A stretch of 39,075 nt of DNA from an uncultured Lachnospiraceae bacterium (GTDB lineage: Bacteria > Bacillota > Clostridia > Lachnospirales > Lachnospiraceae), in assembly GCA_902789555.1 (NCBI GenBank), contig CADAOF010000017.1:1-39075 (forward strand), given 5' to 3'. Below, in pieces: positions 3,279 through 39,075 of this stretch; the stretch's first letter is position 1; every line of letters begins with the position of its first letter. Under the pieces are notes generated by a model. The model was not told where the DNA came from, made no database searches, and worked only from the letters and a program-made list of their open reading frames with translations. The translations under genes were made by a program, and so were the position numbers.

Positions 3279-3401
3279 GGAGGGGTCATTCCTCCGTTAA
3301 TCTGAACTTTGAAAACTGAATACATCAGAAGGGGAAAACTGCCCAGATAAGAGGCCTGAATCTGATTGCATATTCGAAAAGTACATGCTCGAAAGCAAAA
3401 A

Positions 3402-4703
3402 ATGAGAAATCTGGAAGAATTATACAGTTCAGCGGTTTATAAGGAGCTGAACATCGATTTCGCAGCATTGAAATTGATAGATGAAGAGAATAAAACAGAG
3501 ATGCTAAGCCATATACGGACGAATGTGTATATGAATATTGTCGCCCGAGTTAACAAGATCCATCCGTACGCCATCACGCACGGAACAGCAAAAGACCCCC
3601 GCTGGTACACCTACGTAAAAGAAGAAGTCCGCGGAGAAAGGAGAAAAATAAGAGCTAATACCGAAGAAGAACTATATCAGGCTTTGTTTGTCTTCTATTA
3701 TGGAGACTATCTCAAACGAATAGACTACAGCCTGGAACAGCTTTTTCCCGAATGGATCAAATACAAATCCACCACTGCCAACCGACAGAACACAGTGAAA
3801 AAGCTTTATACAGACTACAGGAGATACTATGTGAACGAGGAACTATCAAAGAAAATACTCACAAAGCCGCTTAGAAAGCTGACGCTGATCGATATCCAGG
3901 AATGGGCGTACGCCATGATCAAAGAATATGAGTTCACAAGGCAGCGCTTTACGAATGTCTTTACAATTCTTCGGCAGGCAATGGATTACATGGTCAATAA
4001 CAACTATATGAAGATCAATATCTGCACCAATGTGAATATCAGACCCGGCAGTTTCAAAAAGGCAAGGAAGAAGCCCGCAGACTCGCAGATCTTCTTCCCT
4101 GACGAAACGAAGGAAATGATCGATTATGCTCTTCAACAGGCAGGCCAGACAAATGATGAAGTTTTTCTGGCTGTCCCGATTCTGATCTACAGCGGAATGC
4201 GGATCTCCGAATGTCTAGGATTGTCGTTTAATGATTTCGAGCGGGAAAAGAACCTAATCCACATCCACCGGTCCATGGTTACGGTCGACAAGCTTCTGCC
4301 CGACGGCAGCTGGGCTCCACGAAGATTTGAGATTCAGGAGTACCTGAAACAAAATGCTGATCCTCGAGATGTCCTGGTCTGTGACAAATGCTTTGAGATC
4401 GTTGAAAAGATCCGAACGATTCTCCAGAAGAAGGGAATCAAAAGAGAAATGCTCTTTGAAACGTATACGCCGAATAATCTCCGAACGAAAGTATATCGGA
4501 TGTGCCGAGACCTGGAGATCCAGCAGCGGTCTCCGCACAAATTCCGAAAGACTTTTATCTCACGGCTGATCAACGGCGGAGCAGACGTCGATTTCGTCCG
4601 GGAACAGGCCGGTCATCAGCAGATCGCAACTACGTACAACGCGTATGTTTTCTCGACTACGCGGGACGAAGAAAAGATCAATTTGCTTAATTCCCTAAGC
4701 TGA
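3402..4703 (+). CDS. Tyrosine recombinase / integrase of the left mobile element
   Basis: Counting from ATG 3402 the protein has 433 residues. A SAM-like N-terminal DNA-binding domain (about 110-220) is followed by a complete phage-integrase catalytic domain. Its catalytic residues are Arg267 in GMRISECLGL, His379 and Arg382 in SPHKFRKTF, His405 in AGHQQ and Tyr415 in NAYVFS. The enzyme cuts and rejoins DNA at attachment sites through a 3'-phosphotyrosine. The gene reads toward tRNA-Ser(GCT), whose 3' end lies 265 bp downstream, the classic arrangement for tRNA-targeting integrases. A 6-codon ORF (ATG 3384, MLESKK) ends with a TGA that overlaps ATG 3402, suggesting coupled initiation since no clear ribosome site precedes 3402. 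A TTG at 3366 is an alternative start. Confidence 0.92.
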   Translation: MRNLEELYSSAVYKELNIDFAALKLIDEENKTEMLSHIRTNVYMNIVARVNKIHPYAITHGTAKDPRWYTYVKEEVRGERRKIRANTEEELYQALFVFYYGDYLKRIDYSLEQLFPEWIKYKSTTANRQNTVKKLYTDYRRYYVNEELSKKILTKPLRKLTLIDIQEWAYAMIKEYEFTRQRFTNVFTILRQAMDYMVNNNYMKINICTNVNIRPGSFKKARKKPADSQIFFPDETKEMIDYALQQAGQTNDEVFLAVPILIYSGMRISECLGLSFNDFEREKNLIHIHRSMVTVDKLLPDGSWAPRRFEIQEYLKQNADPRDVLVCDKCFEIVEKIRTILQKKGIKREMLFETYTPNNLRTKVYRMCRDLEIQQRSPHKFRKTFISRLINGGADVDFVREQAGHQQIATTYNAYVFSTTRDEEKINLLNSLS

Positions 4704-4902: not shown

Positions 4903-4967
4903 TTTCCGGCCTGTATCAAAAAAGCTCAAAACCGTTGAAAATACAACGATTTCGAGCTACGTGGGAG

Positions 4968-5056
4968 CGGAGAAGGAGGGATTTGAACCCTCGCGCCGGT
5001 TCACCCGACCTACACCCTTAGCAGGGGCGCCTCTTCGGCCTCTTGAGTACTTCTCC
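4968..5056 (-). tRNA. tRNA-Ser (GCT)
   Basis: This 89-nt class II tRNA has a 7-bp acceptor stem GGAGAAG / CTTCTCC with a G discriminator. The anticodon loop CTGCTAA gives anticodon GCT, which reads AGC/AGU. It has a long variable arm and a T-arm GAGGG-TTCAAAT-CCCTC. CCA is not encoded. A consensus promoter lies upstream. The 3' end faces the integrase gene, so it probably contains the crossover site. It is intact after integration, as usual when the element restores the tRNA end. Confidence 0.95.
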
Positions 5057-36447: not shown

Positions 36448-37674
36448 TCAGATGGCCCAGACGCCGTTCCGGAAGACCGGGACCGAGCTCCCGTCGCGAA
36501 GCTCCGCGTCGATCGAGAGGTCTTCGGAGCCGATCATGAAATCGGTATGAACGAAGGAATCGTTGACGCCGAGTGCGTGGATCTCATCCTGAGACATGGT
36601 CTCAAAGTCTTTGATACAGTCGGGGAAGCCGCGGCCGAGTGCCAGATGGCAGACCGCGTTCTCGTCGAAGAGCGTATTGTAGAAGAGGATACCGGAGGTG
36701 TTGATGGGCGAGGTGAAAGGCACCAGAGCGCATTCGCCGAGGTAGGCGCTGCCCTCATCCATCTCGATGATTTTCGCCAGAAGGTTCTCGTTCTTTGCGG
36801 CATGCCACTCTACGGCCTTGCCTTCATGGAAACGGATGCAGAAATCTTCGATCAGCTGGCCCTGATAACTGAGCGGCTTCGTCGCGTACACGATGCCCTC
36901 GGCTTCGCCCTTCATCGGGGAGGTAAAGCATTCCTCGGTCGGGATGTTCGGGTTGAACGTGACACCGCCGAGCGTATCCTCGGTGCCGCCGCAGAAGCGT
37001 CCCTGCGGGATCAGGCCGACGGTAAAATCGGTGCCGTTCGCGGAAGAGTAGCGGAGGGAACGGATGTCAAGCGCGTTCAGCTTCGCACAGTGCTCCTTGA
37101 TGCTTCGGCTGTGCTCCTTCCAGGTCTGCACCGGGTCTTTTCCGTCCGCGCGGCTCGCAGAAAGGATCGCCTTCCACAGTTTTTCGACTGCGGCAGCCTT
37201 TGAAAGGCCGGGGAAGAGCTTCTTTGCCCAGGCTTCGCCGGGCACGGCCGCGATGCACCACTGATACTTGTTCTCCATGGCGTCGCGGTAGGGCTTGATG
37301 ATGGGGAAGAGTTTCCGCTGGGACTTCGCGACCTTATCGGGGTCGATCCCGGCGAGGCCGTTCGGATCCTCGCTGTCCACGTAGATGCGGGCGGGCAGGA
37401 CCTTTGCGTAGTGTTTCCAGCGTGCAAGGTCGTACTTATCCATATGGCTTAAGGTCTTAAGGCTCCGGTACTGATAATGCAGCTTCGAAACGGGCTGATG
37501 GTTCCAGTCGACCACGACCTTTTTGGCGCCGGCCTTGTAGCATTCCTCGACGAGGAGGGTGACGAATTCCGGCTGATCGAGGCCGGCGTTGATAAAAACT
37601 TCCTGACCCGGCTGCACGTTGGCGCCGGATACGGCAATGAGGCGGGCATAGCCGCGCAGAAGACGCTGTTTCAT
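36448..37674 (-). CDS. M29-family aminopeptidase (AmpS-like)
   Basis: The protein has 408 residues from ATG 37674 (AAGGAG, 7-nt spacer); the longer frame to 37815 crosses a probable promoter. Hallmarks of the M29 family are ..GANVQPGQEVFINAGLDQPEF.. at the N-terminus, ..GTDFTVGLIPQGRFCGG.., and the metal ligands in ..NIPTEECFTSPMKGEAEG.., ..MDEGSAYLGECAL.. and ..NDSFVHTDFMIGS... It should be a cytosolic two-metal exopeptidase releasing N-terminal residues. It is single-gene and faces the CoA-transferase gene. A TATAGT at about 37740-37745 (minus strand) may be the -10 box. Confidence 0.9.
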   Translation of the reverse strand: MKQRLLRGYARLIAVSGANVQPGQEVFINAGLDQPEFVTLLVEECYKAGAKKVVVDWNHQPVSKLHYQYRSLKTLSHMDKYDLARWKHYAKVLPARIYVDSEDPNGLAGIDPDKVAKSQRKLFPIIKPYRDAMENKYQWCIAAVPGEAWAKKLFPGLSKAAAVEKLWKAILSASRADGKDPVQTWKEHSRSIKEHCAKLNALDIRSLRYSSANGTDFTVGLIPQGRFCGGTEDTLGGVTFNPNIPTEECFTSPMKGEAEGIVYATKPLSYQGQLIEDFCIRFHEGKAVEWHAAKNENLLAKIIEMDEGSAYLGECALVPFTSPINTSGILFYNTLFDENAVCHLALGRGFPDCIKDFETMSQDEIHALGVNDSFVHTDFMIGSEDLSIDAELRDGSSVPVFRNGVWAI

Positions 37675-37840
37675 GTCGGTACTCCTTTTTCGGCGCCGCC
37701 GCAGGGCAGGTGCCGGACTGTTTCTGAAATTCAGCCTAACTATAGCACATCCGGGCGGGAAAGAACAGAAAAAGAAGCCTGCGGGCGTAAAAGCTCTGCG
37801 GGAACCGCCCGGCAAAATCGTGCATTAAGGAAAAAGCGGC

Positions 37841-37869
37841 TTGCCAAACCCGGGTTTCTGCGCTATGAT
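37841..37869 (+). promoter_or_regulatory. Strong promoter ahead of the tRNA-Arg-like units
   Basis: TTGCCA (37841-37846), 17-nt spacer, TATGAT (37864-37869). Predicted start is near 37876, about 16 nt before the tRNA-like 5' end, a typical stable-RNA arrangement. Confidence 0.75.
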
Positions 37870-37891
37870 AGCAACGGTCTTCAGAAGACTT

Positions 37892-38005
37892 GTCTGCGTA
37901 GCTCAGCAGGATAGAGCGACCGCCTCCTAAGGTGACAATCGACTTGTTGCTTTTGGGGCAAAAAGCGACAAGTCAGGAGTTCGAATGAGCTCGTCTGAGA
38001 CACCA
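37892..38005 (+). tRNA. tRNA-Arg(CCT)-like, atypical or degenerate (unit 1)
   Basis: The 5' half is a normal tRNA-Arg: acceptor GTCTGCG, D-arm GCTC-AGCAGGATA-GAGC and anticodon loop CTCCTAA (CCT). After the loop the 3' anticodon strand is GGTGA, which does not pair with ACCGC. A 34-nt hairpin (37941-37974) takes the place of the variable loop. TTCGAAT is present but lacks a canonical T-stem, and the end ..CTGAGACACCA pairs with only 5 of 7 acceptor bases. CCA is encoded at 38003-38005. It is either a tRNA pseudogene made by element integration or an RNA using the tRNA start as a module. A canonical tRNA-Arg is unlikely. Confidence 0.4.
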
Positions 38006-38053
38006 AATTTAATACCGATTTTTAAGGCGTAAAAGCCCTTGAAAATACCCCTT

Positions 38054-38167
38054 GTCCGTATAGCTCAGCAGGATAGAGCGACCGCCTCCTAAGGCAGTAG
38101 TCGACCTATCGCTTTTTGGGAAAAAGCGATAGAGGAAGAGTTCAAATGAACTCAGTTGAAAACATTA
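38054..38167 (+). tRNA. tRNA-Arg(CCT)-like, atypical or degenerate (unit 2)
   Basis: Same plan as unit 1: GTCCGTA start, identical D-arm and CTCCTAA loop, perfect 12-bp hairpin CTATCGCTTTTT-GGG-AAAAAGCGATAG (38106-38132), then GAGTTC-AAAT-GAACTC. The 3' end GTTGAAAACATTA neither pairs with the acceptor 5' strand nor ends in CCA. It could not be aminoacylated as it stands. Confidence 0.35.
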
Positions 38168-38362
38168 AATATGACACAGATTTTTAAGGCATAATTGCCC
38201 TTGAAAATACCCTTGTTCCTGGCTATTACGGGCTCTTTTTTTGTGCTTTTTCAAACTGGCTTCTAGTTTCTTCTAACGAGACAGAAATGACCGCCGGTTT
38301 TTTTAATTCTTGTCCTTCTCTTGACCCCATAAAACACTTTTTGCATCGAAGATAATTCGACA

Positions 38363-38471
38363 TTTTCTGCTAACAACGATTAGCAGAATAATCTATTTTC
38401 TGCTAACAAAATCACCTGTTCTGCTAACACTAGAATTTCCCTCCATTTTGAAGTTATTTCAGCTAACAAAA
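38363..38471 (+). repeat. Iteron array of an integrated plasmid-type origin
   Basis: The word TTCTGCTAACA occurs at 38365, 38398 and 38419, a variant TTCAGCTAACA at 38458, and an inverted TTAGCAGAA at 38380-38388. Spacings of 33, 21 and 39 bp are near whole helical turns. The array is AT-rich and lies about 480 bp upstream of repA. A reverse DnaA-like box TTTTCCACA is nearby at 38514-38522. This is the form of an iteron-controlled replication origin. Confidence 0.75.
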
Positions 38472-38577
38472 GCGATATATTCGTTCATCTGTTGAGATCA
38501 GTTGAGTTCCGTTGTGGAAAATTTTCGAAAAGGGTCAAAAACGCTAATAATTTGGCCATTTTCAAAGGCTCCTTTAT

Positions 38578-38639
38578 GAGAGGATCTTTTTTTCGGGGCT
38601 TAATGATCCCCCATCGATATCCGCTAATCCTCTCTTCGC
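38578..38639 (-). ncRNA. Conserved stem-loop, right copy (inverted relative to 3121-3180)
   Basis: On the complementary strand it starts GCGAAGAGAGGATTA and ends AAAAAAAGATCCTCTC. Outer stem GAGAGGAT/ATCCTCTC and inner GGGG/CCCC are conserved with the left copy. Just beyond it on the minus strand AGGAG precedes an ATG at about 38561 that opens a 24-codon ORF (MAKLLAFLTLFENF..), which has no match I recognise. Confidence 0.5.
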
Positions 38640-38676
38640 ATTTTACTGGGCTTTAAGGGTGAGGAGGTGCCTGCCT

Positions 38677-38952
38677 GTGTACGCTGACCATGCAAAGCTT
38701 AACCGATGTAAGAAGCTACTGGAGACTCCGGTGAAGGTGGACCGGAACAAGGAGCCGCCCAGATGCAGGCTCTGTCCCTATTATCAGCCGGACTTCCGGT
38801 ACCGCAGGTGCCTCTTCTCTGCCTGCTTCCGGTACCGCAGATGCCTCTTCTCTGCCTGCCCCTATGGGAAAGACAGAAACACCGCCTTCCGAAGAAAGCC
38901 GCTTCGGAAGGAGAAGATCATCGGCAAGGAGGTGGGTGGTATGAATGCATGA
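38677..38952 (+). CDS. Small Cys-rich protein upstream of repA
   Basis: The protein has 91 residues from GTG 38677, which has AGGAGG 9 nt upstream; the earlier GTG at 38659 precedes the ribosome site. The sequence has CRLC, then FRYRRCLFSAC twice in a row, then CPYGKD and a basic tail. The Cys spacing (C-x2-C ... C-x4-C) suggests metal binding. It ends inside the start of repA (8-nt overlap), so the two are probably translated together. Small Cys-rich proteins ahead of RepA_N-type initiators are familiar in Clostridial mobile elements, but their role is not known. The internal repeat is described separately. Confidence 0.65.
   Translation: MYADHAKLNRCKKLLETPVKVDRNKEPPRCRLCPYYQPDFRYRRCLFSACFRYRRCLFSACPYGKDRNTAFRRKPLRKEKIIGKEVGGMNA
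38794..38859 (+). repeat. 33-bp in-frame tandem duplication within the Cys-rich gene
   Basis: Copies 38794-38826 and 38827-38859 differ at one base and add one FRYRRCLFSAC unit (11 residues) to the protein. It is recent by the near-identity. Confidence 0.9.
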
Positions 38953-39075
38953 CTATTTCTATGGAGTACAGTCCGGACAGTTCTCATTCATCCGGATTCC
39001 GACGCTTCTCTTCACCGACGATCAGTACAAGTACGTTTCTGCGGATGCCAAGATTCTGTATGGCATTCTTCTGGC
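38945..39075 (+). CDS. repA: Replication initiator protein A, RepA_N type (truncated by window edge)
   Basis: The first 43 codons are present: MHDYFYGVQSGQFSFIRIP, then ..LFTDDQYKYVSADAKILYGILL. The FxRIPxxLF and S..AKiLYgiLL pattern is the start of the RepA_N domain, found in initiators of low-G+C Gram-positive plasmids and integrative elements. The domain binds origin iterons; candidates lie at 38363-38471. AAGGAGGTGG precedes the ATG. The start overlaps the Cys-rich gene. Confidence 0.85.
   Translation, partial: MHDYFYGVQSGQFSFIRIPTLLFTDDQYKYVSADAKILYGILL

Follow-up and report, generated by a model that had tools for sequence, protein, structure and literature searches.

The 39,075-base stretch analysed here (the window) is the entire contig C17 of the genome of an uncultured Lachnospiraceae bacterium (G000), and near its right-hand end it carried two tandem units that each begin with the 5' half of a tRNA-Arg(CCT) gene. 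These units are very probably stacked attachment-site ends, left at the tRNA-Arg(CCT) gene by integrative elements of Clostridia. An earlier note on this DNA had listed such an origin, by integration in the anticodon loop, among several ideas, and it is the one that genomes of relatives bore out: their elements ended at CTCCTAA, and orphaned tRNA 3' halves matched the displaced 5' halves.

As described in that note, the units were direct repeats, starting at 37892 and 38054 (spacing 162) and jointly spanning 37892-38214. Each opened with a 39-nt tRNA-Arg(CCT) 5' half, comprising the acceptor strand, D arm, and anticodon stem and loop, which stopped at CTCCTAA (the core) and was followed by a non-tRNA segment, here called X, of 123 nt in unit 1 (X1) and 122 nt in unit 2 (X2), neither being a tRNA 3' half. 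That the sequence beyond the 5' half is unlike a tRNA was confirmed: ARAGORN called no tRNA at either unit, and Rfam reported no tRNA in the units, whether its thresholds were gathering or relaxed, and nothing above a gathering score; its only two matches were weak and fell well short of the cut-offs of their families. A third unit was reduced to the 7 nt GTTCCTG at 38215-38221, at a spacing of 161 from unit 2. The promoter reported ahead of unit 1 was also recovered, as TTGCCA-17-TATGAT at 37841-37869 (10/12 matches), the sole one in 37650-38350 (shuffles 0.4 +/- 0.7). Read as element ends, the array comprises, from left to right:

37841..37869, + strand: promoter of the host tRNA-Arg(CCT) gene, TTGCCA-17-TATGAT (10/12 matches, 0.4 expected)
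37892..37930, + strand: unit 1, displaced host tRNA-Arg(CCT) 5' half, acceptor GTCTGCG; core CTCCTAA at 37924-37930, its role as junction seen in relatives
37931..38053, + strand: X1, left-end segment belonging to the first element and continuing into the 5' half of unit 2; hairpin 37941-37954/37961-37974
37979..37984, + strand: GTTCGA motif at +48 of X1 (0-based), by its offset a candidate integrase arm site
38036..38050, + strand: CCCTTGAAAATACCC in X1, similar to the P-arm motif found at right ends of elements (score 8.1, position -55 relative to the next core)
38054..38092, + strand: unit 2, tRNA-Arg(CCT) 5' half brought with X1, acceptor GTCCGTA; core CTCCTAA at 38086-38092
38093..38214, + strand: X2, left-end segment belonging to the second element; hairpin 38105-38117/38121-38132; GTTCAA at 38140-38145 (+47)
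38198..38212, + strand: CCCTTGAAAATACCC in X2, identical in letters to the X1 copy; P-arm score not above 8 (best 7.5, at another offset)
38215..38221, + strand: GTTCCTG, acceptor 5'-strand remnant of a third tRNA-Arg(CCT)
38221..38235, + strand: GGCTATTACGGGCTC, from the trailer hairpin that followed the lost tRNA (its second arm); the hairpin is whole in G405

Genome G405, of the same genus, shared both flanks of the array and differed in the first unit, having another X with GTCGCAT in place of X1 with GTCCGTA. On the left, identity was 92.6% over 1534 columns and stopped at 37932, two bases past the first core; on the right, the stretch 38206-39005 was 94.1% identical over 800 columns, and X2 had 84% identity to X of G405 and G400. 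Relative to G405, the remainder of the third tRNA and part of its trailer were gone at 38220-38222, with a two-base overlap at the joint. This loss of the terminal tRNA may reflect either a small deletion or an assembly fault.

We propose that a tyrosine integrase recombines the 7-bp CTCCTAA of the tRNA anticodon loop with the same 7 bp in the element. The target tRNA would be split, its 5' half joined to the X of the element at one end and its 3' half orphaned at the other, and would not be rebuilt; instead the element would bring a whole tRNA-Arg(CCT) gene, just inside its X end. Both steps were observed in relatives, and the promoter of the carried tRNA probably lies in X. The carried tRNA presents the same target again, so that a second element can insert into it, giving the order 5' half-X-5' half-X, as in Clostridiales bacterium CCNA10. 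Element bodies would later be lost, with compact scars of X and a 5' half remaining. Applied to the window, this scheme would give three stacked 5' ends (GTCTGCG, GTCCGTA, and GTTCCTG) in the order peptidase gene, host promoter, host 5' half, X1 with the 5' half of the first element, X2 with the start of the 5' half of the second, a deletion, and then the body of the last element, which would begin at the right with repeats and a RepA-like open reading frame (ORF).

Intact elements carried much of the evidence for this scheme. In the complete genome of CCNA10 (G411) and in C. citroniae (G415), the intact tRNA was followed by a tyrosine integrase pointing at the tRNA, an HTH_17 protein, and a PemK toxin; in C. 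citroniae, on whose copies the element protein profiles were run, the element also encoded two relaxases, a TraG-like ATPase, TrbL, ParA, and ParB. A 74-kb conjugative element was common to both genomes, and both of its ends aligned, with gaps between them, from the left 5' half and X to a right end that reads ..CTGGGTCCAT, then CTCCTAA and 24 nt of the orphan 3' half. Outside CTCCTAA, the tRNA halves of the two genomes differed. CTCCTAA lay at both element ends in the two genomes and at other right ends, and the host tRNA was rebuilt at neither junction in C. citroniae or at the inner element of CCNA10, leaving both halves orphaned. An intact tRNA-Arg(CCT) stood behind X in relatives, where the window retains seven bases of such a tRNA. 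A third insertion of the left part of the element, behind GTCTCCG in a Subdoligranulum record, was 98.5% identical over 2737; its right end was not found in that record. The stacking step was visible in CCNA10, where the orphan 3' half of a GCCCCCG tRNA was located at 237132, as forecast from the left end alone. The same GCCCCCG tRNA was whole, with its trailer, in L105, behind a near-identical 54-nt X (two bases differ from CCNA10), so the CCNA10 element had entered an element-borne tRNA. PF00589 proteins were further found beside the tRNA in L219, L220, L221, and L225, and beside an orphan 3' half in L284. In Pseudoflavonifractor (G417), the end beside the tRNA had RepA_N and, by eye, ParA- and ParB-like ORFs, and the integrase lay next to the orphan 3' half, at the opposite end. 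The element in the window may share this arrangement, with RepA_N at its tRNA-side end. In Blautia parvula (G412; L138 and L240), a host tRNA-Arg(CCT) was split by about 60 kb and no matching intact tRNA was detected in G412 by the two patterns used; perhaps this is an element without a replacement tRNA. One ORF in the C. citroniae tRNA-Arg(CCU) element (L232:2064-3983) has a start like that of a ribosomal-protection tetracycline-resistance protein and may encode one.

Matches to the window region were found in 11 of 16 genomes of the genus and 291 of 397 of the family, counts that include intact tRNA genes and are not a prevalence. A strict pattern targeting displaced 5' halves (CTCCTAAG with A or G next) recovered at least 120 stretches from GTDB contigs, all 120 of which were processed by script; nearly all of the 80 listed bear clostridial names. 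The pattern occurred in at least 7 of 391 genomes of the class, G000 included, which is a lower bound, and it excludes X starting with GC, so that the collection is biased in this respect. It matched 0 viral contigs, and we therefore rejected a viral origin. Among phage and plasmid records, none covered 80% of the query, the best reaching 25% among the matches listed (20 of 54 for phages, 14 of 14 for plasmids). Of three plasmid-record neighbourhoods, those of Subdoligranulum and Monoglobus had X behind other 5' halves, and that of Pusillibacter held a whole tRNA only.

Loci in relatives formed arrays in which 5' halves alternate with X, and 61 of the 120 closed with an intact tRNA-Arg(CCT) inside the locus; the other 59 may include arrays that run off the locus. 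We collected 126 distinct closed X of 43 to 304 nt, of which 88 remained at about 72% identity. Eleven letter-identical X stood behind more than one upstream acceptor strand, and in 11/11 the 5' half that follows was constant; X thus travels with the 5' half downstream of it. X1 with GTCCGTA recurred in G398 behind another 5' half, and there the half completes an intact tRNA (..TTACGGAC). G404 had the same X family as the window in a different tRNA-Arg(CCT) gene, and an 84-nt X with a GTTCCG tRNA half (GTTTCCG) lay in a Monoglobus record behind a very different tRNA-Arg(CCT) gene. Separately, displaced 5' halves of other tRNA-Arg(CCT) types (e.g. ..GTAGTTAAATGGATATAACAAG..CTCCTAA) lay inside some long X, in L161, L142, L193, and L069, and one serves as target in L096, so the core, and not the tRNA body, may define the target.

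Two motifs recurred in X. GTTCRA was present 40-55 nt past the core in 28 of 69 divergent X, mostly at +47/+48 (shuffles: mean 1.0, maximum 5 in 300), among them 12 of 31 short and 16 of 38 long X; in the window units it stood at +48 and +47. The second, the P motif, was learnt from element right ends, with 18 of 26 distinct sequences kept. It scored above 8 in 21 of 27 right ends (training sequences included), 25 of 38 long X, 2 of 50 short X, and 1 of 38 shuffled sequences; 18 of the long X had it at -64 to -68 and 5 at -55/-56. Both are candidate integrase arm sites. If so, many long X would be nearly complete attachment sites of a deleted element, a reading that is less certain for the window units.

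The presence of both motifs in many long X (GTTCRA in 16/38, the right-end motif in 25/38) could also point to mobile units in their own right. Integron cassette arrays consist of short units delimited by recombination sites, and the units described here are likewise short and bounded by recombination sites, the site in this case being a tRNA half; neither attC sites nor an IntI-type integron integrase were seen, with no search aimed at them. The units could accordingly be compact cassettes of an attachment site and a tRNA 5' half, moved in trans by resident integrases like gene-less integron cassettes, a reading that we consider unlikely. More broadly, and just as doubtfully, the tRNA-Arg(CCU) genes of Clostridia might be an integron-like platform at which gene-less cassettes of 80-300 bp (attachment site, promoter, and 5' half) are swapped in trans, each giving the working tRNA a new promoter and 5' half. 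Identical X in differing contexts fit such movement, as does the 100-nt X of G405, which recurs in a second array of G400. However, no excised circle was seen, and many X were only 43-86 nt, which gives units of about 82-125 bp; DNA of this length is too short to form double-stranded circles easily. Scars of larger elements account for the same facts.

If stacked elements orphan both halves of their target, the 3' halves should be found elsewhere in the genome. In 47 of the 61 closed arrays, a displaced 5' half and the intact tRNA had different acceptors; a search for 3' halves covered 38 of the 47 and gave matches in 37 genomes. At least one 3'-half site besides the intact tRNA was present in 19 of the 38 genomes (24 sites in total). 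With four sites from G411, G415, and G417 there were 28, and three that had their own 5' half (L250, L251, and L261) were dropped. The resulting 25 orphan 3' halves (20 genomes) paired at 11.36 of 12 positions on average with displaced 5' halves from their own genome, 17 of them at 12/12, compared with 9.6/12 against the resident tRNA's own 5' half (one at 12/12). When genomes were permuted, the mean was 10.31 and the maximum 10.92 in 5000 permutations, with 0/5000 reaching 11.36; counting Watson-Crick pairs only, the values were 10.12 for displaced, 7.96 for resident, and 8.51 for permuted halves (maximum 9.32). The orphans of G412, G413, and G416 fitted by eye; they stand outside the 25, as these genomes had no array closed by a tRNA of another acceptor.

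This pairing bears on the most familiar alternative, conventional islands that restore their target: the element would supply the 3' half, the resident 5' half would be that of the host, and the upstream 5' halves would be unrelated debris. Such islands, which displace a single fragment as they restore the target, are the ordinary type in the Islander account (PMC4383910). They require the orphan 3' half to match the intact tRNA, and the displaced 5' half was the better partner in 21 of the 25 cases, equal in 3, and worse in 1. Orphan pairing thus largely refuted conventional restoring islands, to which we assign a very low probability, and it argues that the elements orphan both halves and carry a whole tRNA. 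It also gives no support to the idea, raised in the earlier note, of a tRNA with an unusual insert that needs processing, since the 3' halves matching the displaced 5' halves lay at far element ends and not in X.

The same note had read the differences between the hairpins of the two units as compensatory, suggesting selection on structure. The paired changes in hairpin 1 are real and were present as described, and three folded stretches of the window had z scores of -3.10, -3.18, and -3.35, better than shuffles. Six more homologues, however, lent weak support, and the stem was often broken. The alignment held eight sequences: units 1 and 2; G398, G400, G405, G403, and G404 of the same genus; and L163 from a goat-omasum metagenome-assembled genome. 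Two-sided changes affected 3 of 14 pairs of hairpin 1 (6 cells), a level reached by 20 of 500 shuffles (covariation score, 21 of 500); 10 of the 14 pairs were broken in at least one sequence, and 7 varied by breaks alone. The nearest homologue, G398 (95.9% over 196 nt), breaks three pairs of this stem as read from the alignment. Hairpin 2 (GAGTTC/GAGCTC) showed no two-sided change, with three of six pairs invariant, two changed on one side, and one varying by a break only. Across the whole given structure, paired cells were not above shuffles (99/500), and helix 3 of the structure used for covariation was poorly placed and is not evidence. The opening 47 nt of X, assessed in 69 divergent segments no shorter than 60 nt, folded no better than shuffles (mean z -0.34; 6/69 below -2), and folding was stronger in a control stretch near the X end (mean z -1.31 over 38 X) than in the hairpin stretch. 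Hairpin covariation was therefore a weak structural signal in this genus, and there was no general one.

A tRNA-mimic or otherwise structured RNA, made from the tRNA promoter and with its hairpins kept by selection, would suit the promoter, the good folding, the weak covariation of hairpin 1, and the conserved GTTCRA. Against it, 10 of the 14 stem pairs were broken in some homologue and three in the nearest, X had no general hairpin, and the T-loop-like motif came without a tRNA context: T-stem pairing around it was not significant (permutation p = 0.058, 28 X), and neither was acceptor pairing in X (p = 0.87 and 0.68, 28 X). Since the hairpin covaries weakly and not in general, and since GTTCRA lacks T-arm and acceptor pairing, the regulatory RNA suggested in the earlier note is hardly credible, and the hairpin and GTTCRA of X more plausibly form the binding-site architecture of an integrase. 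Simple tandem copying of a tRNA gene, with 3' halves in decay (some X of about 54 nt look like such halves), was refuted for many arrays by identical X behind different 5' halves in different genomes and by intact 3' halves at element ends, and can be given almost no weight here.

Several observations weigh against stacked element ends as the origin of the units. In G000 itself there was no orphan 3' half, a 3'-half pattern allowing up to 3 mismatches having matched only other tRNAs, and a search with the C. citroniae integrase gave only a fragment, 34% identical and interrupted by a stop. The contig breaks off within the element, its terminal tRNA is absent apart from seven bases, and the integrase of the window (3366-4703) sits at a tRNA-Ser and not at the array. 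Elsewhere, 19 of the 38 genomes searched had no orphan site at up to 1 mismatch, G417 had three displaced 5' halves and one orphan 3' half, and by eye no element genes were noticed beside the array in G400 and G403. The P motif also passed in 11 of 117 outermost flanks. Finally, the outer orphan of CCNA10 (281464, acceptor TATGGAC) mismatched the outermost 5' half of its array, where a unit may have been lost or exchanged.

The earlier note had asked whether an intact tRNA-Arg(CCT) exists elsewhere in the genome. None was seen in G000 among the 30 of 41 RF00005 match loci typed with ARAGORN; the untyped matches include two above the cut-off (83-84 nt) and three below it. A tRNA-Arg(TCT) was present, and such a tRNA may read AGG by wobble. 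As none was seen, tRNA-Arg(CCT) seems dispensable in this genome.

The closest known parallel is tRNA-dependent lysogeny in actinobacteriophages, where a tRNA gene is disrupted through a short core and an element-borne tRNA replaces it (PMC10865867). Its authors speculate that a second plasmid could integrate in the tRNA of the first. The elements of the relatives share with that system a tyrosine integrase, a short core in a tRNA gene, and a target that is not rebuilt. In contrast to that system, they are conjugative elements of Clostridia at tRNA-Arg(CCU), with a 7-bp core that is exactly the anticodon loop, a replacement tRNA just inside one element end, natural stacked insertions, and a tRNA that seems dispensable, none having been seen in G000. 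Islander islands (PMC4383910) are alike in their tyrosine integrase, anticodon-centred attachment site, displaced tRNA fragments, and tandems; these fragments are mostly 3', since 5' fragments are listed for 159 of 3919 islands, and tandems of at least three number 4. They restore the target and leave one fragment, whereas here both halves were orphaned in the clear cases. In an archaeon, a tRNA-Thr 5' fragment lies upstream of a 1.8-kb recombinase-bearing insertion (PMC3293823), so that there too a mobile element displaces a 5' fragment next to a whole tRNA gene; that tRNA bears an intron, and the abstract mentions no multi-half array. Fragments of tRNA in archaea are also treated in PMC9897764. 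The open-access literature searched yielded no account of clostridial tRNA-Arg(CCU) arrays. The principle is thus already known from tRNA-dependent lysogeny, and its use by conjugative elements and the natural stacking seem new. Through the arrays, the strategy of tRNA replacement that was described in 2024 for actinobacteriophages would extend to clostridial conjugative elements, and the re-use of an element's own tRNA as the next landing site, earlier a speculation only, becomes visible in sequenced genomes. With their 5' halves to one side and the 3' halves to the opposite side, they would form a readable record of successive insertions, one that helps to delimit elements which tRNA-fragment tools assume to restore their target.

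The array was flanked on the left by a chromosomal gene and on the right by the element body:

36448..37815, - strand: gene for a peptidase M29 (aminopeptidase), chromosomal and flanking the array on the left (Pfam PF02073, 1.3e-156)
38362..38469, + strand: TTCTGCTAACAA-type repeats of the element body, iteron-like (4 of 5 copies of family D2)
38659..38952, + strand: small cysteine-rich ORF of the element body, 97 aa, no Pfam hit
38945..39075, + strand: start of a RepA_N-like ORF (replication initiator), truncated at the contig end, resembling L224 RepA by eye

The L224 RepA itself matches PF06970 at 3.9e-29. Within the cysteine-rich ORF, a 33-bp tandem duplication (38793-38858, 97% identical) is present as a single copy in G405.

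At the opposite contig edge, 920-5056 resembles another integrated element:

920-1867, - strand: ParB
1821-2762, - strand: ParA
2863-2955, - strand: pemK RNA (RF02913, 62.7 bits)
3366-4703, + strand: tyrosine integrase, pointing at tRNA-Ser(GCT)
4967-5056, - strand: tRNA-Ser(GCT)

With this integrase-bearing left edge and the array at the right, the contig is bracketed by two elements at tRNA genes. The pemK RNA of the window adjoins the integrase, and L220 and, by eye, L284 have a PemK gene close to the integrase, so that PemK and such integrases may travel together.
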